Origin: Bradyrhizobium manausense
Lineage (GTDB): Bacteria; Pseudomonadota; Alphaproteobacteria; Rhizobiales; Xanthobacteraceae
Direction: 5' to 3'
Length of the DNA: 64,000 bases
NCBI RefSeq assembly: GCF_018131105.1
Contig: NZ_JAFCJI010000001.1
Span: forward strand, 1,116,001 to 1,180,000
A model generated the notes under the pieces. The model worked only from the letters and a program-made list of their open reading frames with translations, made no database searches and was not told the DNA's origin. Made by a program: the position numbers and the translations under genes. Below, one piece after another: positions 36,075-52,710 of this stretch (positions are counted from its first letter, which is position 1; each line of letters begins with the position of its first letter).

Positions 36075-36350
36075 TCACGTTCGGGTCAGGAAATCCATCG
36101 AGCCGAGGTAGAGAAGAATCCCGAGCCAGAACAGCCCGGCGCCGGCGAACACGAGCGTGAGACCGCTCCGATGCCGCAGCTCCATGAAGATGGCTGCGAC
36201 GACCCCTGCCTTGATCGTGCCGATGATCAGGGCCACGGCGGCATTCCCGGCTCCGAGCGGCACGTAAGCCAGAGTCACGGTGAGCGCCAGCAAGGCGAGC
36301 AACCCAAGCCATGAGCCGATCAGGGCAAGCGGCGGCCGCCAGTCCGTCAT
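36075..36350 (-). CDS. coxP: Cytochrome c oxidase subunit IV (caa3 type)
   Basis: A 91-residue membrane protein with three hydrophobic segments (SWLGLLALLALTVTLAYVPL, AAVALIIGTIKAGVVAAIFM, LTLVFAGAGLFWLGILLYLG), the pattern of bacterial caa3/bo3 subunit IV. It is last in a five-gene minus-strand operon and overlaps the subunit III gene by 4 bases. The symbol follows the Bradyrhizobium coxMNOP operon, whose order and subunit II type match; it was not verified. Confidence 0.82.
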   Translation of the reverse strand: MTDWRPPLALIGSWLGLLALLALTVTLAYVPLGAGNAAVALIIGTIKAGVVAAIFMELRHRSGLTLVFAGAGLFWLGILLYLGSMDFLTRT

Positions 36351-36991
36351 GATGTAGACCTCCCGGGCAGGTAGATCAGCGCGAACAGGAAGATCCAGAC
36401 CACGTCGACGAAATGCCAGTACAGCGCGGCGCTGTGCAGCGCCGTATGATGACGCGTCGTCGGCGCCTTCCGGCAGATCGTCGCAAGCGTGAGCAGCAGG
36501 CAGATCCCGATCAGCATATGCAGGGCGTGGATGGCCGTTGCGATGAAGTAGAAGATGAAGAATAGTTGGACGCCGTTGGCTTTCGGACCCGCGAATTGGA
36601 AGTCGATCCCGGGAATCAGATGTTCGTCATATTCCCTACTGTACTCAATGCCCTTGAGTGCGATGAAGACAAGGCCGAGACACGCAGCCCCGACGAGCAG
36701 CCATGTGACGATCCTCGTGGTGGCGGGCGAAAAGACCTCGACGGCCCACGCCACCAAAAAGCTCGATGTCAGCAACACCGCTGTGTTGGCCGTTCCGATC
36801 ACGATCTCGGTGTGCCGGCTGCCCGCGGCGAAACCTTGCGGCAAAGCATGACGGTAGACGAAATAGGCGAGGATCAGGCCGCCGAACAGCAACACTTCCG
36901 TGGCGATGAACACCCACATGCCGAGTTCGGCGGTGTGATCGCGGTGGGGGATCGATGCGTATTGGGGCGCGAAGGCGGAGCTGTCAGGCAT
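36347..36991 (-). CDS. coxO: Cytochrome c oxidase subunit III
   Basis: A 214-residue subunit III with five TM helices. Signatures: [20 protein letters not shown] near the N-terminus, [20 protein letters not shown], and [20 protein letters not shown] at the C-terminus, where the conserved WHFVDVVW is diagnostic. ATG 36991 lies within the 3' end of subunit I (8-base overlap). The longer in-frame start at 37009 has no advantage. Confidence 0.92.
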
Positions 36992-38591
36992 TTTGCGGCT
37001 CCGCCTCAAAAGCCTCGTTGTATTGGTAAGGATCGCGCGTCACCACCGGTTGGACCGTGAAGTTGAACTCCGGCGGCGGCGAGGACGTCTGCCATTCGAG
37101 TCCGGGCGCGTCCCACGGGTTCGCCGGCGCGCGCCGGCCAAAAAACGCGGAATAGCCGAGATAGAATACCGGCATCAGATACGCCACGGCGAGGATCACC
37201 GCACCGCCCGATGACAACACGTTCCAGAGCTGAAATTCCGGCGGATAGACGTGATAGCGCCGCGGCATGCCTTCCGCGCCGAGTATGAACTGCGGGAAGA
37301 AAGTGAGGTTGAAGCCGAAGAAGATCAGCACCGCGGCGGTGCGCGCCCAATATTCCGAGTAGAGCCGGCCGGTGATCTTTGGCCACCAATAATGCAGCCC
37401 GCCGAAATAGGCCGTCACCATGCCGCCAACCATGATGTAATGGAAATGAGCGACGACAAAGTAGGTGTCGGTCGCGTGCACGTCGAAGGCAAGGCAGGCA
37501 AGGAACAGGCCGGTGAGGCCGCCGATCGTGAAGAGCCCGATGAAGGCCAGCGCATAGAGCATGGGGGCGTCGAAATGGATCGAGCCCTTGTGCAGCGTCG
37601 CGGTCCAGTTGAACACCTTGATCGCGGAGGGCACCGCGACGATGAAGCTCATGAAGGAGAATACGAGGCTTGCGATCAGCGACTGGCCGCTGACGAACAT
37701 GTGATGGCCCCAGACCAGGAAACCGACCGCAGCGATAGCCAGACTGCACCAGGCCACGAACTTGTAGCCGAACACCTGCTTGCGCGAGAAGCACGAAATC
37801 AACTCGTTGATTACACCCATGCCCGGCAGGATCATGATGTAGACCGCGGGATGCGAGTAGAACCAGAACAGGTGCTGGAATAGCAGCGGATCGCCGCCAA
37901 TCCTGGGATCGAAGATGCCGACGCCGAAGAAGCGTTCCGTCGCCATCAAAAGCAGCGTGATGGCGAGTACCGGCGTTGCCAGCACAAGGATGACTGAGGT
38001 CGCGTAAAGCGACCACAGGAACAGTGGTAGCCGATACCAGGTCAATCCCGGCGCGCGCAAGCGGTGGATGGTGACGATGAAATTGAGGCCGGTCAGGATC
38101 GACGAGAAGCCGGCGATGAAGACGCCCGCGGCTGCGACGATCACGTAACTGTTGGAATAAAGCGTCGAGAACGGCGTGTAAAACGTCCAGCCGGTGTCGA
38201 CACCGCCCGCGAAGATTGCGAACAGCGTGGTGCAGCCGCCGAGCATGAAGATGTACCAGCTCATCAGATTGAGCCGGGGAAACGCAAGGTCCCGGGCGCC
38301 GATCATCAGTGGGACAATGAAATTGCCGAGCGTGTTTGGGATCGATGGAATCAGGAAGAACCACACCATGATGATGCCGTGCATGGTGAAGAGGCGATTG
38401 TAGATGTCAGAGCTGACTAGATCGGCCTGCGGTGTTGCGAGCTCGATCCGGATCGCGGTGGCGGCCGCGCCGCCGATGAAGAAAAAGACGATCAGGCTCG
38501 CGAAATACAGGATCGCGATGCGCTTATGATCTGTAGTGAAGAACCAGGATCGCAGCGTGAAATCGGCGGTGAGATAATTCTTCTCGCTCAT
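36984..38591 (-). CDS. coxN: Cytochrome c oxidase subunit I (heme-copper catalytic subunit)
   Basis: A 535-residue heme-copper oxidase subunit I with 12 TM helices. Heme and CuB ligands lie in [42 protein letters not shown] and [16 protein letters not shown]. The HPxVY and HH motifs, with no bd- or cbb3-type features, make it an A-type aa3 enzyme. It overlaps subunit II by 4 bases and subunit III by 8. Heme A synthesis genes (ctaA, ctaB) are not in the window. Confidence 0.95.
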
Positions 38592-39529
38592 GTTGGATGT
38601 CCTGCGAGCGATTTGATGTAAACGACGAGCCGCAACAGCTGATCCTCGCTGACCTTGCCCTCGAACGACGGCATCAACGGCTGATAGCTTGCGACCACTT
38701 GGCTGCGCGGCATCAGGATCGAATCCCGGATGTACTTGTCGTCCGCGATGACGGTGGTGCCGTCCGAGAGCGGCACCGGCTTGCCGTAGACGCCTTCGAG
38801 CGGAGGAGCGCGGATCGTGCCGCCGCCACCGTGGCAGCCGCTGCAGCCGAGTTCGCGGAACAGCTGACCGCCTTCGCTCGCCAGCGGGCTCGATGGCGCC
38901 TGCTGCGTCAGCCAGTTGGAGAAGTCGGCCGGGTCCATCGCAACGATCTCGCCGATCATGCCGGAATGGTCGGTGCCGCAATATTCGGCGCAGAACAGAT
39001 GATAGTGGCCCGGCTTGTCGATTTCGATCTCGAGGTCCTGGTAGCGGCCCGGTACGACATCATGCTTGAGCCGAAGGGCGGGAATGAAGAAGCTGTGAAT
39101 GACGTCCTGCGAGGCCATCACCAGGCGGATGGGGCGCTTGACCGGAATATGCAGCGCATCGATCTCCGCCTGGCCGCCGGGATGCTGGGTCTTCCACATC
39201 CATTGTTTGGCCACGATGAAAATATCGTGCTCGTCTGCCGGCGTCCGGTAGATCTGGAAGTAGACGGTCGCACCCCAGACGAAGAGGCCGAGAAAGCAGA
39301 CGAACGAAGCGGCGGTCCAGCTCACCTCCCAATGCCAGCTCTTCTTGACGCGATGGTCTCGGTCGGTCTGATTGCCGGCGCGATAGCGCGCGCAAAACAA
39401 CGTGAGCAGGAAGAACAGCAGTCCGACCACGAGTGCGCTGGCAATCAGGAGGCCGGTAAACAGCAGGTCGACGTCGCCGCTGTGCGGCGAGAGACCGGGA
39501 TGCCAGAACGGAATCCACTGGCGCCACAT
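38588..39529 (-). CDS. coxM: Cytochrome c oxidase subunit II with fused cytochrome c domain (caa3 type)
   Basis: A 313-residue subunit II: two N-terminal TM helices ([20 protein letters not shown] and [20 protein letters not shown]), a cupredoxin domain with the CuA site [12 protein letters not shown], and a C-terminal cytochrome c domain with CSGCH near residue 232. The fused heme c makes this a caa3 oxidase, as in the Bradyrhizobium alternative oxidase CoxMNOP. A heme c docked on the oxidase fits direct electron delivery from the alternative complex III encoded next door. Confidence 0.94.
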
Positions 39530-39555: not shown

Positions 39556-39909
39556 TCATGGAGACGGCCATCCTGGCAAACCCTTGCGCAGGAGGATATC
39601 GATCGCGCGATCGATCGGAATCCGGACCTCTCCTCGGCTGCGATCGGCCCAGCCGTAGCCGCCCTCGATCTGCGCTTCTCCTTGCCGTGTCGCCTGCAAC
39701 GTGGCCCGTGGGTTAACCTCGAGCGGAGGCGCATTGGAGCTCATCGCCGGGCGGCTCGCGGGTGTGATGCGCTTGGTGGACAGCGGAAATAAAGGGGGGA
39801 GGACGAGCGGCGTAATGAGGACAAAAGTCGCAAGGCCTGCCGCGAGCCAGCCGACAAGGCGCAGTCCGACGTCCGACCGCTCGTAGTCGACGTGGTTAGT
39901 GTCCGCCAT
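39556..39909 (-). CDS. Membrane-anchored protein of the caa3 / alternative complex III locus
   Basis: A 117-residue protein with one TM segment near the N-terminus (LVGWLAAGLATFVLITPLVL) and a periplasmic part ending in YGWADRSRGEVRIPIDRAID. The RIPIDRAIDILL element resembles short proteins found beside alternative complex III and caa3 genes, of unknown function. It is first in the oxidase operon, 26 bp before subunit II. I infer a role in assembly or as an accessory subunit; no cofactor motif is visible. Confidence 0.75.
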   Translation of the reverse strand: MADTNHVDYERSDVGLRLVGWLAAGLATFVLITPLVLPPLFPLSTKRITPASRPAMSSNAPPLEVNPRATLQATRQGEAQIEGGYGWADRSRGEVRIPIDRAIDILLRKGLPGWPSP

Positions 39910-39956
39910 GGGTGCTGTCCTCGATCGCGGCGGGACAATGCGGTCCCGGGGATTGT

Positions 39957-39973
39957 GTTCCTAGTTTAGGAAC
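39957..39973. promoter_or_regulatory. Palindrome with two opposed GGAAC motifs between oxidase and complex III operons
   Basis: GTTCCTA-GTT-TAGGAAC is a perfect 7-3-7 inverted repeat in the divergent gap 39910-40030. Read on either strand it gives GGAAC followed after 17 bases by ATTGTC (plus strand 39991-39996; minus strand 39939-39934). In the N16 register the -10 would be GATT (+) or CATT (-), close to but not matching CGTT. It may be a pair of ECF-type promoters sharing their -35 region, or an operator for both operons. Confidence 0.5.
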
Positions 39974-40030
39974 CATCGTAGAAGGGCAAGATTGTCGACC
40001 GGACAGCTCGCTCACCGGGTCACGGCGAGA

Positions 40031-40687
40031 ATGGTGCAAATATTCTCACCTGTGGCGGACACGTGGATTCGCCTGTTCCTGATCGGCGGCCTGTCGCTCG
40101 CCGGCGGCAGCATCGTGGCCGCTGTCGGCTTCGCACATTCGGCGTACATGACCGAGACCGATATTCGCCCGCATCAGCCGGTGCCCTTCAGTCACCGCCA
40201 TCACGCAGGGGAACTGGGAATCGACTGCCGCTATTGCCATAGCAATGTCGAGGCCGGGCCGCAGGCGGGCCTCCCACCGACCGAGACCTGCATGACATGT
40301 CACTCGCAGATATGGACGAACGCGTCGATGCTGGAGCCGGTGCGCAAGAGCCTCGCCGACAACAAGCCGATCCCATGGAGGCGCGTCGCAAAGTTGCCTG
40401 ATTACGTGTTCTTTCGCCACGACATCCATATCGCCAAGGGGGTCGGCTGCGAGAGCTGCCACGGGCGCATCGACCGGATGGCGCTGACCTATCGCGCCAA
40501 GCCGTTCACGATGCAGTTCTGCATCGATTGCCATCGCGATCCAGTGCCACATCTGCGTCCGCCGGATCACATCACCGACATGGCGTGGACGCCGTCTGCG
40601 AATGCGCGCAAGGAGGGTGAGGCGATCGCTGCCCATGAGGGCATTCGCTTCGGCGAACTCACGCATTGCTACGTGTGCCACCGATGA
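40031..40687 (+). CDS. actA: Alternative complex III pentaheme cytochrome subunit (ActA)
   Basis: A 218-residue membrane-anchored multiheme cytochrome. One N-terminal TM helix (LFLIGGLSLAGGSIVAAVGF) precedes five CXXCH sites (CRYCH, CMTCH, CESCH, CIDCH, CYVCH), the ActA pattern of quinol:cytochrome c oxidoreductase. ATG 40031 gives the usual family start MVQIFSP; a TTG at 39992 with AGGG upstream would add 13 residues. It heads a six-gene operon, each gene overlapping the next. ActA takes part in electron transfer to periplasmic cytochrome c. Confidence 0.92.
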   Translation: MVQIFSPVADTWIRLFLIGGLSLAGGSIVAAVGFAHSAYMTETDIRPHQPVPFSHRHHAGELGIDCRYCHSNVEAGPQAGLPPTETCMTCHSQIWTNASMLEPVRKSLADNKPIPWRRVAKLPDYVFFRHDIHIAKGVGCESCHGRIDRMALTYRAKPFTMQFCIDCHRDPVPHLRPPDHITDMAWTPSANARKEGEAIAAHEGIRFGELTHCYVCHR

Positions 40688-43569
40688 AACGCCGCATCGA
40701 CCATCGATCGGCGGACGGGCCGCGAGTGTGGGCAGGTATCGAGGAGCTGTCGGATGATCCGCGGTTTCAGGCCTTCATCGATGCCGAATATCCCGCGGTT
40801 CACGAATTATCCAAGACCGCGCGCCGCGAATTCCTCAAACTGATGGGGGCCTCCTTTGCGCTGGCGGGGCTGACCGGCTGCGAGAAGAGCTCGTTCATTA
40901 CGGCACTGCCCTATGTCGACCAGCCGCCGAGCGAGACCATCGGCCTGCCGCGCTATTATGCGACAGCGGTGCTGCTCGACGGCTACGCGCAGCCGGTGGT
41001 CGCCACGGCCCATGCCGGTCGTCCGACCAAGCTCGACGGCAATCCCGGACATCCGGCGACGCAAGGCCGCAGCGACATCTTCATGCAGAGCGCGGTGCTG
41101 CAACTCTATGATCCCGATCGCGCGGCGGCACCGACCCGGCATGGCGAGGCGACGAGCTGGGCCGACGTAGAAGCCGCGATCGGAATCATGCGCGAGAACT
41201 GGCGCCCTGATCAGGGCGATGGCGTGCGACTTTTGCTTGGGCCGACGACATCGCCGACGCTTCTGCGGCAGATCGATGCCTTCCGGGAGCAGTTTCCGAA
41301 GGCACGCGTTCATGTGCATGCGGCGACGGACCACGAGGCGAGGCGGCAAATGGCGACCGCCGTTTATGGTCAGGCCCTCGATTTGCACTATGTGCTTAAC
41401 GAGTGCGAGATCGTCGTTGGCCTTGACGACGATTTTCTCGGGCCAGGTCCTCATCAGGTACGCAATGCGCTGGGGTGGTCGCAATCGCGGCGGCGGTCCC
41501 ATGATCGTCCTGGCAATCGATTGTTCATGGCTGAGAGCGTGCCAACGGCCACAGGGGCGATGGCGGGTCAGCGTCTGATCGCAGACGCCGGGCGGATGCC
41601 CGTTCTCGCCGAGGCCCTCGCCAACGCGCTCGGTGTGACGGGCGCATCGAAGCCCGAAATATCGGCCGCAGAAACAGGCTGGATTGCGCGTGTCGTTGCG
41701 GCTTGCAAGGATCGTTCGGTGCGATCGCTGTTCGTCTCAGGCTTGAGCGGCGGCGCGGCCACGGCGTTCTGGATTGCGCGGATCAACCAGCAGCTAGGGA
41801 ACGCCGGTGCAAGCCTGAAACTGACCGCTCCGATCGCGGGCCCTGCTGATGCGGGAACGCTGGCCGACCTGGTGACCGATATCATTGCGGAGCGCGTCAC
41901 CGCTCTCCTCGTGCTCGATTGCAATCCCGCCTACAGCGCGCCCGGTGAGCTCGAACTCGGCGACGCCATCAAGCGTGTCCACTCATCGCTTTATCTCGGC
42001 CTGTATCGAGATGAGACAGCTGCACTCTGCGAATGGCAACTGCCCCTGGCGCATCCGCTTGAGAGTTGGAGCGATGCGCGCGCTGTCGACGGCACTGCAA
42101 CCATCGTTCAGCCGGTGATCTCGCCGTTCTACGACGTCAGATCGGTACATTATGTCCTGGCGAAGCTGCTTGGTGAGGTTGACCAGGCACTGGATGCCGC
42201 AGTCCGTGAGACCTGGCAGGTGAGGCTTGGCGATCAATTCGAACTGCGCTGGAAGCAAGCGCTGCACGACGGCTTTATCGAGGGAGCGGCTTCGTTCATC
42301 ACGGCATCCCCCACAAGCAATACCGATGCGCCGCCGAAGACGACCGGCGGCCTGGACGTCGTGTTTCAGCCGGACCCGACGATCCGGGACGGCCGGTTCG
42401 CCAATATCGGCTGGCTTCAGGAGCTTCCCAAAACGCTGACGACGGTAACCTGGAGCAACGTGATCGCGGTGAGCCCGGGGCTGGCGAAGCGCTTCAGTGC
42501 CGCCAACGGCGATCATGTCGAAGTGACGGTCGGCGAGCGTCACATCAAAGGGCCGCTCTGGATCATGCCGGGCCAGGCCGACAATACGGTCGCACTCTAT
42601 CTCGGCTACGGCAGGACCAGGGCAGGACGGGTCGGCGACAATCTCGGCTACGACGCCTATCTGGTACGGCCGGCCGCCGAACCGTGGCTTGCACAGGGAA
42701 GCCTGCGCAAGCTCGACACGAGTGAGGATCTGGCGGTGACGCAGCTCCATCACCGCCTCGATGGATTTGATCTCGCTCGCGAGGTCAGCCCCGGTCAGCT
42801 TGAGCGGACAAAGCCAGAGCCGGCCAGTCTTTACGCTCCCTGGCCGTCGTCCAGGAACGCCTGGGGCATGGTGATCGATCTCGACAGCTGCATCGGCTGC
42901 AACGCCTGCGTGACCGCGTGCACAGCCGAGAACAACGTTCCGGTGGTCGGTGCGGATCAGGTCAGGGCCGGCCGCGAGATGCACTGGCTACGGATCGCGC
43001 GGTACTACACCGGCGATGTCAGCCAGCCACACAGCTTCTTCGAGCCGGTGCCCTGCATGCATTGCGAGGACGCGCCCTGCGAGATGGGCTGCCCGGTGCA
43101 TGCCACGACGCACAGTCCCGAGGGCGTCAACCAGATGGTCTATAACCGCTGCATCGGCACGCGCACCTGCTCGAGCTATTGTCCTTACAAGGTGCGGCGC
43201 TTCAATTTCTACGACTATCGGGCGCCAGCTGATTCATCGGAGCACGCCGCCCACAACCCAGACGTGACGGTACGCTCGCGTGGCGTCATGGAGAAATGCA
43301 CCTACTGCACCCAGCGCATCGAGGCGGCACATGTCGCCGCGGACAAGGAGAACCGCCCCGTACGTGATGGCGAGATCGTCACCGCCTGCCAGCAGGCCTG
43401 TCCGACCAAGGCGATCGTGTTCGGCGACATCAACGACCCGAATTCCGAGGTGTCGCGGCTAAAGCGTGACGGCCGGCATTATGTACTGCTCGAGGAGCAG
43501 GGGACGCGGCCTCGCACGACTTATCTGGCGCGCTGGCGTGACGATGACTCGGAATCGAGGCAGGGATGA
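40684..43569 (+). CDS. actB: Alternative complex III iron-sulfur/molybdopterin-like subunit (ActB)
   Basis: A 961-residue fusion of a molybdopterin-oxidoreductase-like domain and a ferredoxin-like domain. A twin-arginine segment with a lipobox-like end (RREFLKLMGASFALAGLTGC) lies near residue 50. From about residue 735 come four clusters' worth of cysteines: CIGCNACVTACTAENN, CMHCEDAPCEMGCPVH, CIGTRTCSSYCPYK and CTYCTQRIE with CQQACPTK. The large domain is thought to lack molybdenum in this complex. It overlaps actA and actC by 4 bases each. Confidence 0.94.
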   Translation: MKRRIDHRSADGPRVWAGIEELSDDPRFQAFIDAEYPAVHELSKTARREFLKLMGASFALAGLTGCEKSSFITALPYVDQPPSETIGLPRYYATAVLLDGYAQPVVATAHAGRPTKLDGNPGHPATQGRSDIFMQSAVLQLYDPDRAAAPTRHGEATSWADVEAAIGIMRENWRPDQGDGVRLLLGPTTSPTLLRQIDAFREQFPKARVHVHAATDHEARRQMATAVYGQALDLHYVLNECEIVVGLDDDFLGPGPHQVRNALGWSQSRRRSHDRPGNRLFMAESVPTATGAMAGQRLIADAGRMPVLAEALANALGVTGASKPEISAAETGWIARVVAACKDRSVRSLFVSGLSGGAATAFWIARINQQLGNAGASLKLTAPIAGPADAGTLADLVTDIIAERVTALLVLDCNPAYSAPGELELGDAIKRVHSSLYLGLYRDETAALCEWQLPLAHPLESWSDARAVDGTATIVQPVISPFYDVRSVHYVLAKLLGEVDQALDAAVRETWQVRLGDQFELRWKQALHDGFIEGAASFITASPTSNTDAPPKTTGGLDVVFQPDPTIRDGRFANIGWLQELPKTLTTVTWSNVIAVSPGLAKRFSAANGDHVEVTVGERHIKGPLWIMPGQADNTVALYLGYGRTRAGRVGDNLGYDAYLVRPAAEPWLAQGSLRKLDTSEDLAVTQLHHRLDGFDLAREVSPGQLERTKPEPASLYAPWPSSRNAWGMVIDLDSCIGCNACVTACTAENNVPVVGADQVRAGREMHWLRIARYYTGDVSQPHSFFEPVPCMHCEDAPCEMGCPVHATTHSPEGVNQMVYNRCIGTRTCSSYCPYKVRRFNFYDYRAPADSSEHAAHNPDVTVRSRGVMEKCTYCTQRIEAAHVAADKENRPVRDGEIVTACQQACPTKAIVFGDINDPNSEVSRLKRDGRHYVLLEEQGTRPRTTYLARWRDDDSESRQG

Positions 43570-44921
43570 GCGAGCATTCCGACATCCTGCCGACGCGCCA
43601 GAGCATGGGCGGCATCGCCGACCAGCTCACCCGCATCCCCCTGCATTTCCCGGCGGACCGTCGTTGGGTGATTGCGATGTCGATCGCGAGCGCGCTGCTG
43701 TTGCTGCTGATGGTTTCGGTGGTCGAGCTGTTCACCCGCGGGGTCGGTATCTGGGGCATCAACATCCCCGTCAACTGGGCCTTTGCCATTCACAATTATG
43801 TCTGGTGGCTCGGCATCGGCCATGCCGGCACGTTGATCTCGGCGCTGCTGCTGCTGACGGGCAGCGAATGGCGCAACTCGCTCAATCGCTTCGCCGAGAC
43901 CATGACGCTATTCGCTGTGGTCTGCGCCGGCATCTATCCGATCCTGCATCTTGGGCGGCCCTGGTACGTCTACTGGATGTTTCCCTATCCGGCGACGATG
44001 GGCGTGTGGCCTCAATTTCGCAGCCCGCTGGAATGGGACATCTGGGCGGTGCTGACCTATCTGACGGTGTCGCTGGCCTTCTGGTACACGGGCCTGATCC
44101 CTGACCTCGCCGCAGCGCGCGATCGGGCGACGCGGCGCGGCTGGCAGATCTTCTTCGGCATCACGGCGCTCGGATGGCGCGGCTCGGCCAGGCATTGGCA
44201 GCGCTGGCAGCAGGCCTACCGGTTGACCGCGGGACTTGCCGTGCCTTTGGTTGTCTCAGTTCACAGCGAGGTGTCGCTGCTGTTCGCCGTCGGGCAGATC
44301 CCGGGCTGGCATTCGACGATCTTCCCACCATACTTCGTGCTGGGCGCCGCCTTCTCCGGTTTCGCCGTCGTCTCCATCATCGCGGTATCGCTGCGCTCGT
44401 GGTTCGGCTTGAAGAACCTCGTGACCGACGATCATCTCGATCTGCTCGGAATGGTCCTGCTCGCGACCGGCCTGATGACCGGCTACGGTTACGTCTTCGA
44501 GGTATTCGACGCCGTCTATTCCGGCGAGGCGCACGAGATTCAAACGCTGGCGGATCGCTTCACCGGCGCCTACGCCTGGACCTATTGGGGGGCGGTCATC
44601 TTCAACTTCATCCCGCTGCAGGCGCTGTGGCTGCGCACGGTCCGGCGAAGCGGATGGATGCTGCTGCTGGTCTCGGCGTCCGTCGTGATCGGAATGTGGC
44701 TCGAGCGCTACATGATCCTGGTCACCAGCCTCTATCGCGACTTCCTCGTCTCGTCCTGGAGCCACTTCACGCCGAGCTTCTGGGACTGGTCGACTTATTT
44801 CGGCACGATCGGGCTGTTCCTGGTGCCGTTCCTCATCGCTATCCGCTTCGTGCCCATGATCTCGATCTTCGAGAGCAAGGAGCTGCTCCACGAAGAGAAA
44901 GAGGAGCGGCAGCATGGCTGA
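43566..44921 (+). CDS. actC: Alternative complex III membrane subunit ActC (NrfD/PsrC family)
   Basis: A 451-residue polytopic protein with about ten TM helices, such as WVIAMSIASALLLLLMVSVV and WWLGIGHAGTLISALLLLTG. The GHAGTLIS motif and IYPILHLGRPWYVYW belong to the NrfD/PsrC family, which binds quinol. ActC carries one of the two candidate quinol sites of the complex. ATG overlaps the actB stop. Confidence 0.93.
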   Translation: MSEHSDILPTRQSMGGIADQLTRIPLHFPADRRWVIAMSIASALLLLLMVSVVELFTRGVGIWGINIPVNWAFAIHNYVWWLGIGHAGTLISALLLLTGSEWRNSLNRFAETMTLFAVVCAGIYPILHLGRPWYVYWMFPYPATMGVWPQFRSPLEWDIWAVLTYLTVSLAFWYTGLIPDLAAARDRATRRGWQIFFGITALGWRGSARHWQRWQQAYRLTAGLAVPLVVSVHSEVSLLFAVGQIPGWHSTIFPPYFVLGAAFSGFAVVSIIAVSLRSWFGLKNLVTDDHLDLLGMVLLATGLMTGYGYVFEVFDAVYSGEAHEIQTLADRFTGAYAWTYWGAVIFNFIPLQALWLRTVRRSGWMLLLVSASVVIGMWLERYMILVTSLYRDFLVSSWSHFTPSFWDWSTYFGTIGLFLVPFLIAIRFVPMISIFESKELLHEEKEERQHG

Positions 44922-45444
44922 ACGGCTCTACGGCGCACTGGCGGAGTTCAGGAGTCCGGAAGACCTGCTGGCCGCGACACGCAAGACGCGCGAGGCGGGC
45001 TACCGCAGTCTCGACGCCTTCACGCCATTTCCGGTCGAAGGACTGGATCGCATTCTGCGTTTTCCGCGGCCGACCATCTCCTTCGTCGGCCTTGGCGGGG
45101 CCATCGCCGGCGCAAGCGCCGCGCTCGCCATGCAGTTCTTCACGAACTACGATTACCCGCTCAATGTCGGTGGACGGCCGATCTATCCGATCTCGGCCTT
45201 CGCAGTCGTGACTTTCGAGCTCACCATCCTGTTCTCTGCGCTCGCGATGCTGTTCGGGATGCTCTGGCAGAACGGGCTGCCCCGGCTCAGCTACCCCGTG
45301 TTCGACGGCGAGCGATTTCATCGCGCCAGCAAGGACAGGTTTTTTCTTTGCGTCGGCGCTGACGATGCCAAGTTCGATGCGGGCGAAACGCTAGCCTTCC
45401 TGAGCAGAACCGGCGCGTTGTCGGTGGAACTGGTGCCGGAATGA
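44914..45444 (+). CDS. actD: Alternative complex III subunit ActD (DUF3341)
   Basis: A 176-residue protein with two TM helices (TISFVGLGGAIAGASAALAM; AFAVVTFELTILFSALAMLF) after a soluble N-terminus with YGALAEFRSPEDLLAATRKT and YRSLDAFTPFPVEGL. This is the DUF3341/ActD layout. The family has no cofactor; it is a structural subunit in the membrane. It overlaps actC by 8 and actE by 4 bases. Confidence 0.92.
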   Translation: MAERLYGALAEFRSPEDLLAATRKTREAGYRSLDAFTPFPVEGLDRILRFPRPTISFVGLGGAIAGASAALAMQFFTNYDYPLNVGGRPIYPISAFAVVTFELTILFSALAMLFGMLWQNGLPRLSYPVFDGERFHRASKDRFFLCVGADDAKFDAGETLAFLSRTGALSVELVPE

Positions 45445-45971
45445 ACAGGGTTCTGGTCATCGTTGCGCTGGCCGGTCTGCTCGCCGGGTGTGACCAGAAC
45501 ATGGACGAGCAGCCGCGCTACAGCGAATATTCGCGTGCGCCGTTGTTTCGCGGCAGTGTGCTGCGACCGCCGCCGGCAAACACGGTCGCCCGCGACGATC
45601 TCGACCGGGAGAAGGCGGCGAGCACGAAGCCTGCGCTCACGGCCAAACTGCTGGCGCGGGGGCGTGAGCGTTTCGGCATCTTCTGCTCGCCATGCCACGG
45701 CGCCGGCGGCGATGGAACAGGCATCGTCGTCCAGCGCGGCATGCCGCGTCCGACGAGCTATCACGACAACAGGCTGCGCACGGCGGATGACCAGTATTTC
45801 TTCGACGTCATCACCAACGGCCATGGCGCGATGTATTCCTATGCGGCCCGCGTGCCGCCGGCGGATCGCTGGGCGATCATCGCCTATATCCGGGCGCTGC
45901 AGCTCAGCCGTCAGGCCTCGCTCGACGACGTGCCGGCCGATGAACGCGCCAGGCTGGAGAGCCGGCCATGA
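45441..45971 (+). CDS. actE: Alternative complex III monoheme cytochrome c subunit (ActE)
   Basis: A 176-residue lipoprotein cytochrome. Lipobox LAGC at residues 14-17 (MNRVLVIVALAGLLAGC), heme site CSPCHGAGGDGTG near residue 81, and a distal Met candidate in GHGAMYSYAARV. ActE is the likely exit point for electrons to soluble cytochrome c or directly to the heme c of the caa3 oxidase. It overlaps actF by 4 bases. Confidence 0.92.
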   Translation: MNRVLVIVALAGLLAGCDQNMDEQPRYSEYSRAPLFRGSVLRPPPANTVARDDLDREKAASTKPALTAKLLARGRERFGIFCSPCHGAGGDGTGIVVQRGMPRPTSYHDNRLRTADDQYFFDVITNGHGAMYSYAARVPPADRWAIIAYIRALQLSRQASLDDVPADERARLESRP

Positions 45972-51576: not shown

Positions 51577-51601
51577 GGAACCGCATTCTGAACCTCGGGT
51601 T
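51577..51601 (+). promoter_or_regulatory. Candidate EcfG-type promoter, Cys-rich flavoprotein gene
   Basis: GGAAC (51577-51581), 16-base spacer, GGTT (51598-51601), 33 bases before ATG 51634. The sequence around the -10 (GGGTTGGTCG) is the same as in the site at 55422-55446. Confidence 0.6.
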
Positions 51602-51633: not shown

Positions 51634-52710
51634 ATGACGGAACCGGACGTTCGCAAGGGCATGCCGCCCGTCAAGCTGTCGCGAGAGGAATTCGAGAGCC
51701 GTTACAAGAGCCAGTTCGTCGACCCCGCCTTCGCACCGCTCGGTCGCGAGCTGGATGCAATCGTTGGCGCGGCTTGGGACGCCTACAGCCATTCACGCAA
51801 ATCGCCGGTGACGCGGAAAGCGGGGGCGGGGTTTAGCGATCCGGATTATGATCTTGCCGTCGATTGGCTGACAGCACGGGCCGCCATTCTGGCGGCGCAG
51901 CGGCAGCACGACGAAGCCAGCGCGACGCCGCGTATCCTGGTCATCAACGGCTCGGCCCGCAGCGAGCACACCTGTCCCGGCGAGATGTCCAAGACCTGGC
52001 GCATGGTCAAGCTTGCCGAGCCCGTCCTCTCCGAAATGGGATTTGCTGTCGATATCCTCGATCTGTCGCGGCTGACCTCCGAGTTCGGCAAAAACATCCA
52101 TCCCTGTAAATCCTGCGTCTCGACGGCGATGCCGCTTTGCCACTGGCCCTGCAGCTGCTATCCGAACTATTCACTGGGGCAGACCAGCGACTGGATGAGC
52201 GAGATCTATCCGCTTTGGGTCGCAGCGCATGGAATCCTGATCGTCACGCCGGTGAACTGGTATCACGTGCCGGGCGGGCTGAAGGCGATGATGGACCGTC
52301 TGGTCTGCGCCGACGGCGGCAATCCCGATCCGACGTCGACCCACGGCAAGAAGGCCGCTGAGGCGAAGGCGCTGGAGCTGAAGGGCTGGCCGTATCCCCG
52401 CCATCTCGCCGGCCGCTATTTTGGCCTCATCGTTCATGGCGACAGCGTCGGTGCCGAGGGCGTTCGCCGAACCTTGTCCGATTGGCTGACCGACATGCAC
52501 CTGATCTCGGCCGGTCGGTTCGGCGAGATGGACGGCTATGTCGGCTACATGGAGCAATACGCGACCTCCCACCAGGAGCTGGACGAAGATGGGGCGTTCC
52601 AGCAGGAGGTGGTGAATGTCGCGACGGCACTGGGTCGTGCCGTGAAGCTCGGCCGCAGCGGGCGGCTCGAAGATCCCGGGGCGGAACTCTCGGATCCAGC
52701 TCCGAAGTAG
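51634..52710 (+). CDS. NAD(P)H-dependent FMN reductase-like flavoprotein with a Cys-rich loop
   Basis: A 358-residue flavodoxin-fold protein. About 95 N-terminal residues of unknown role precede the FMN-binding start ILVINGSARSEHTCPGEMSK near residue 105. TPVNWYHVPGGLKAMMDRLV is the family's second flavin loop. Between them lies HPCKSCVSTAMPLCHWPCSC with five cysteines (158, 161, 169, 173, 175), which could bind iron-sulfur or another metal. It stands alone behind a candidate EcfG promoter, so a stress reductase is plausible. Confidence 0.85.
   Translation: MTEPDVRKGMPPVKLSREEFESRYKSQFVDPAFAPLGRELDAIVGAAWDAYSHSRKSPVTRKAGAGFSDPDYDLAVDWLTARAAILAAQRQHDEASATPRILVINGSARSEHTCPGEMSKTWRMVKLAEPVLSEMGFAVDILDLSRLTSEFGKNIHPCKSCVSTAMPLCHWPCSCYPNYSLGQTSDWMSEIYPLWVAAHGILIVTPVNWYHVPGGLKAMMDRLVCADGGNPDPTSTHGKKAAEAKALELKGWPYPRHLAGRYFGLIVHGDSVGAEGVRRTLSDWLTDMHLISAGRFGEMDGYVGYMEQYATSHQELDEDGAFQQEVVNVATALGRAVKLGRSGRLEDPGAELSDPAPK

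Follow-up and report, generated by a model that had tools for sequence, protein, structure and literature searches.

A palindrome between the alternative complex III and caa3 oxidase operons of Bradyrhizobium is probably the meeting point of two back-to-back ECF promoters, most likely read by EcfG

What is the function of a perfect palindrome situated between two divergent respiratory operons? The question is raised by a stretch of 64,000 nucleotides from Bradyrhizobium manausense (hereafter, the window), in which an earlier note had located such a site with an oxidase operon on one side and that of alternative complex III on the other, a location confirmed by the flanking genes. On the + strand, the site is followed by genes for an ActA-type multihaem cytochrome c (40031-40687, ATG at 40031), an ActB-type iron-sulfur/molybdopterin-like subunit (40666-43569, family match), an NrfD-type subunit, ActC (43566-44921, family match), ActD (44914-45444, PF11821) and a cytochrome c subunit that matches its family and is assigned as ActE by position (45441-45971). 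On the - strand, the first ORF of the oxidase side encodes 117 aa (39556-39909, ATG at 39909) and has no Pfam or NCBIfam match. Beyond it lie COX2 with a cytochrome c domain, of the caa3 type (38588-39529; TIGR02866 at 146.1 bits, slightly below the cut-off of 147.7), and, both by family match, COX1, i.e., cytochrome c oxidase subunit I (36984-38981), and COX3 (36347-37009), all of them on the - strand.

The palindrome (39957-39973) reads GTTCCTAGTTTAGGAAC, with the arms GTTCCTA and TAGGAAC around a central GTT, and it is present as a single copy in the window. Its arms, which are conserved around a variable gap, contain two opposed GGAAC motifs that represent putative -35 elements, one at 39957-39961 on the - strand and the other at 39969-39973 on the + strand, with 7 bp between them. 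Reading outward from the palindrome, GGAAC on the + strand (39969-39973) is followed after 17 bases by ATTGTC (39991-39996), and GGAAC on the - strand (39961-39957) is followed, also after 17 bases, by ATTGTC (39939-39934), exactly as had been described. The additional claim of a symmetry reaching far beyond the palindrome holds for the -10 blocks but not for the remaining sequence: complementarity about the centre at 39965 covers distances 2-8 and then 26-31, which correspond to the two ATTGTC blocks, and between distances 9 and 44 it is found at 13 of 36 positions, six of which belong to the ATTGTC block. The interval originally delimited, starting at 39939, omits most of the left -10. No single -10 serves both strands; there are two separate ones, at 39934-39940 and 39990-39996. 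These elements would constitute one putative promoter directed towards the alternative complex III operon (39969-39993, + strand; GGAAC, N16, GATT at 39990-39993) and another directed towards the oxidase operon (39937-39961, - strand; GGAAC, N16, CATT at 39940-39937), from which transcripts would be expected to start around 40001-40003 (+) on the act side and around 39927-39930 (-) on the cox side.

The earlier note had proposed conservation in orthologous loci as a test, and the palindrome site proved to be kept. A total of 112 ActA loci were collapsed into 98 distinct upstream regions, 33 of which contained GTTCC-N0..12-GGAAC; one of these (L064; 152 bp from the match start, without -10s) was excluded, leaving 32 regions for the study of spacing and phylogeny. 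Opposed GGAAC arms accompanied by -10s are therefore present in 32/98 regions, the presence of GGAAC itself in 32/32 being a consequence of how the regions were selected. The site is present whenever ActA shares 74% identity or more with that of the window, which accounts for all 32 regions, and the next lower ActA relative, at 60% identity, is devoid of it. When the neighbours of all 112 loci were counted (45 with the site and 67 without; several genomes are in both collections), a small ORF and a divergent COX2 were found next door in 45/45 site-bearing loci and in 0/67 site-less ones, the absence of COX2 referring to the upstream stretch searched, which spans 6 kb at most and goes down to 0.3-1.5 kb in some loci. 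ActA and COX2 also co-occur across the genus, in the same 46 of 265 genomes (COX2 E-values up to 1e-60). The 117-aa ORF (39556-39909, -) keeps its first place in the oxidase operon at each of the 45 site-bearing loci. There is also a second Bradyrhizobium ActA/COX2 group, formed by 22 pairs with ActA 47-56% identical, in which the two genes are not divergent but share a strand, with about 8 kb between them (e.g., G149:C11:96574-105949); the palindrome is absent from the six loci of this group examined (L008, L029-L033).

The reading that we favour, with a probability of roughly 0.78, is that the palindrome represents the meeting point of two back-to-back ECF promoters whose sigma factor is most likely EcfG. 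EcfG is the general stress sigma factor of the Alphaproteobacteria, and it is released once the anti-sigma factor NepR has been bound by phosphorylated PhyR. The genome under study contains one NepR, and both PhyR and an ECF sigma adjoin nepR; it is on account of this position that the ECF sigma is referred to as EcfG. On both strands, the site displays the GGAAC -35 and the spacing of 16 or 17 bases that characterize EcfG promoters, but GATT and CATT replace the consensus -10 CGTT. This departure was not taken as an exclusion, because the EcfG -10 has been described as flexible and because the -10 of the nepR-ecfG promoter is itself [AC]ATT. NepR was found in 97 of 98 genomes, and in the 30 of these 97 loci that were examined the nepR-ecfG promoter always reads GGAAC-N16-[AC]ATT[GA], with AATTG in 12 cases, CATTA in 10, CATTG in 5 and AATTA in 3, although the act-side GATT of our site differs from these AATT and CATT forms. 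On the phyR side of the same 30 loci, the promoter reads GGAAC-N16-CGTA in 26, CGTC in 3 and CGTT in 1. In the genome of the window, the nepR side is GGAAC-N16-AATTG, the phyR side is GGAAC-N16-CGTA, and the arms are 9 bp apart. The phyR/nepR-ecfG region of Bradyrhizobium thus resembles the act/cox site in having opposed, back-to-back GGAAC promoters with N16 spacing and, on the nepR side, an ATT -10; it differs in that the arms are separated by 9, 10, 20 or 21 bp (30 loci), in the CGT of the phyR side and in that the genes served are stress regulators.

The flexibility of the EcfG -10 is illustrated in the consulted parts of two reports: putative EcfG sites in Sphingomonas include CATT and AATT (PMC6599016), and up to 14 different EcfG -10 boxes have been counted in Sphingopyxis (PMC7083833). 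As far as the portions consulted go, autoregulation is common among EcfG sigmas (PMC7083833, PMC3892343), one exception being a Sphingopyxis paralogue (PMC7083833). Given this common self-control and the ATT -10 of the nepR-ecfG promoter, the EcfG of this genus most likely reads ATT -10s. Also in favour of EcfG, the act orthologue of L049 carries the consensus -10, CGTT. The spacing of similar motifs was also analysed in a sample of 804 kb, formed by the window and 37 further stretches with rough gene calls. Upstream of genes,.[AG]TT lies 16 bases from GGAAC in 13/92 cases, two of them being the act/cox sites themselves, whereas the other spacings average 2.3; as coding DNA also shows an excess at spacing 16, albeit smaller (30/1047 versus a mean of 16.9), this peak was considered supporting evidence only.

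The same two promoters might instead be read by a different ECF sigma that recognizes a GGAAC -35 and an ATTG -10, which we regard as unlikely. The earlier note had raised this option from the non-CGTT -10, and CGTT is indeed rare among the 32 regions, with one act-side case (L049, GGAAC-N16-CGTT) and none on the cox side; the genome, in addition, contains many sigma-region-4 genes (26 matches). The inference is nevertheless not supported, since an ATT -10 is also what the nepR-ecfG promoter displays in 30/30 loci. Besides EcfG, there are 25 sigma-region-4 loci, and the upstream reading covered 20 of them; of the other five, four fall under the family cut-off. GGAAC-N16/17-[ACG]ATT was found upstream on the own strand in 0/20, a result to be read with the caveat that missing autoregulation does not exclude a sigma; moreover, some of the 20 resemble response regulators rather than ECFs. 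Six looser GGAAC...TT matches are distributed over four of these loci (L201, L203, L215 and L216), and in L203 (G000:C1:3632400-3634400) a GGAAC-N16-CGTT lies on the strand opposite a sigma-region-4 gene. An ECF sigma encoded nearby was also considered and rejected, as none of the 26 sigma-region-4 matches of the genome falls in the window and a Pfam scan of 18 ORFs of the window revealed none either. A further argument against another sigma comes from EcfF of B. japonicum, whose promoters are likewise ECF promoters of the same genus but, according to the part of the report consulted, have a GTAAC -35, a spacer of N14-15 and CG in the -10 (PMC3420878).

Considerably less probable is a dimeric regulator, the other possibility raised by the earlier note, for which the palindrome would be a single operator controlling both operons. 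A dimeric protein requires a fixed distance between half-sites, and a promoter requires a fixed distance between -35 and -10. Among the 32 regions, no fixed half-site distance is found, the gap between the GGAAC arms being 3 bp in one, 6 in 15, 7 in 15 and 8 in one, a spread in which the two frequent values differ by 1 bp and the extremes are single rows. On the act-gene tree, with good support for 14 of its 29 inner branches, the arm gap has changed at least seven times. Each promoter half, on the contrary, keeps its spacing: with 16 tried ahead of 17 in assigning the -10, the distance from GGAAC is 16 bases in 32/32 regions on the cox side, and on the act side 16 in 29 and 17 in 3. The cox-side -10 is.ATT in 31/32 regions, the exception being ACTT in L050. 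Conservation peaks at GGAAC and the -10s, which also argues against an operator, and is low over most of the spacer. The dimer is favoured by the perfect 7-bp arms of the window site and by the complementarity of the outermost gap bases in 14/15 rows with a 7-bp gap, a figure that drops to 8/15 in rows with a 6-bp gap. Because the -35/-10 spacing is kept while the arm gap varies, we interpret the site as two back-to-back ECF promoters and not as one dimeric operator. Two ECF promoters overlapping at their -35 elements had been the first suggestion of the earlier note, of which the promoters with neighbouring -35s stand and the overlap does not, since the -35s share no bases and are 7 bp apart.

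That the palindrome arose by chance and has no function is very improbable: short palindromes do arise in this way, and 1/100 shuffles of the window gave a match with up to 2 mismatches, but 22 of the 23 occurrences of the full two-sided pattern in 265 genus genomes are at the act/cox locus, and the site is kept in 32 distinct orthologous regions. At the same threshold of mismatches, the window contains one match against a mean of 0.01 over the 100 shuffles, and the exact palindrome has one site in the whole 6.87-Mb genome. The full pattern used in the genus search was CAAT-N17-GTTCC-N2..12-GGAAC-N17-ATTG, whose backward-read control gave 0 matches in the 265 genomes. Its sole match away from act/cox (L147, 1501-1560, in G067) has on one side a 202-aa ORF lacking any Pfam match and on the other a 27-aa ORF. 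GGAAC-N17-ATTG alone was discarded as a regulon signature, being too unspecific with 65 genome matches and with a backward control that differs in composition; the one-sided GTTCC-N2..12-GGAAC-N17-RTT gives 17 rows in the genome of the window, several of them within ORFs.

If the site does consist of two EcfG promoters, EcfG holoenzyme would, under stress, bind either of the two -35s, the right one leading to transcription of the alternative complex III operon and the left one to that of the caa3 oxidase operon. In this manner, both halves of one respiratory branch would enter the stress regulon together, in Bradyrhizobium as well as in its close relatives. The 7 bp between the -35s should leave too little room for two holoenzymes at a time, and the directions would therefore be expected to compete at each binding event. 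From the sequence, we infer EcfG dependence, the start sites, stress induction and this competition. The earlier suggestion that one event switches between or couples both operons is plausible. As a tentative extension, which we consider doubtful, the arrangement could act as a symmetric 'splitter', in which close, opposed EcfG -35s force each polymerase into one direction and so set the ratio of act to oxidase; selection would then maintain the opposition while the gap drifts.

Known promoters share several of these features. In the portions consulted (PMC3892343, PMC7083833), EcfG promoters are described as GGAAC-N16/17-CGTT, and the act/cox site is alike in the GGAAC -35, the spacing of 16/17 and the TT of the -10; it differs in that the -10 is mostly GATT or CATT instead of CGTT and in that the target is a respiratory branch. 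The bidirectional promoters of E. coli, as presented in part of PMC12825309, are likewise symmetric DNA with divergent transcription and one polymerase at a time, but they share a -10 and their starts are about 10-23 bp apart, whereas at the act/cox site it is the -35s that abut, each direction has its own -10 and the sigma would be of the ECF kind. EcfG promoters and divergent operons are already known, as is the same layout at phyR/nepR-ecfG; for an alternative complex III under EcfG control, no report was found in the open-licence PMC literature, a scope outside which the main B. japonicum EcfG papers lie.

Should the proposal be correct, the general stress system would, in part of Bradyrhizobium, govern a whole respiratory branch formed by alternative complex III and caa3 oxidase. 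If the splitter also operates, the general stress response would include a complete route from quinol to oxygen in which cytochrome bc1 is bypassed. The results suggest that EcfG promoters of Bradyrhizobium should be sought with NATT besides CGTT, and the locus is a natural setting in which to ask whether divergent operons with abutting -35 elements compete or remain in balance. Two further sites deserve mention. Within the window, GGAAC-N16-GGTT (51577-51601, +) precedes the FMN reductase-like ORF 51634-52710 by 57 bases and is possibly an EcfG promoter. Elsewhere, at G000:C8:24016-24069 (L269, L270), where a long ORF begins, two opposed GGAAC arms are separated by 4 bp and each is followed by N16-CGTT; they perhaps form another back-to-back EcfG site.
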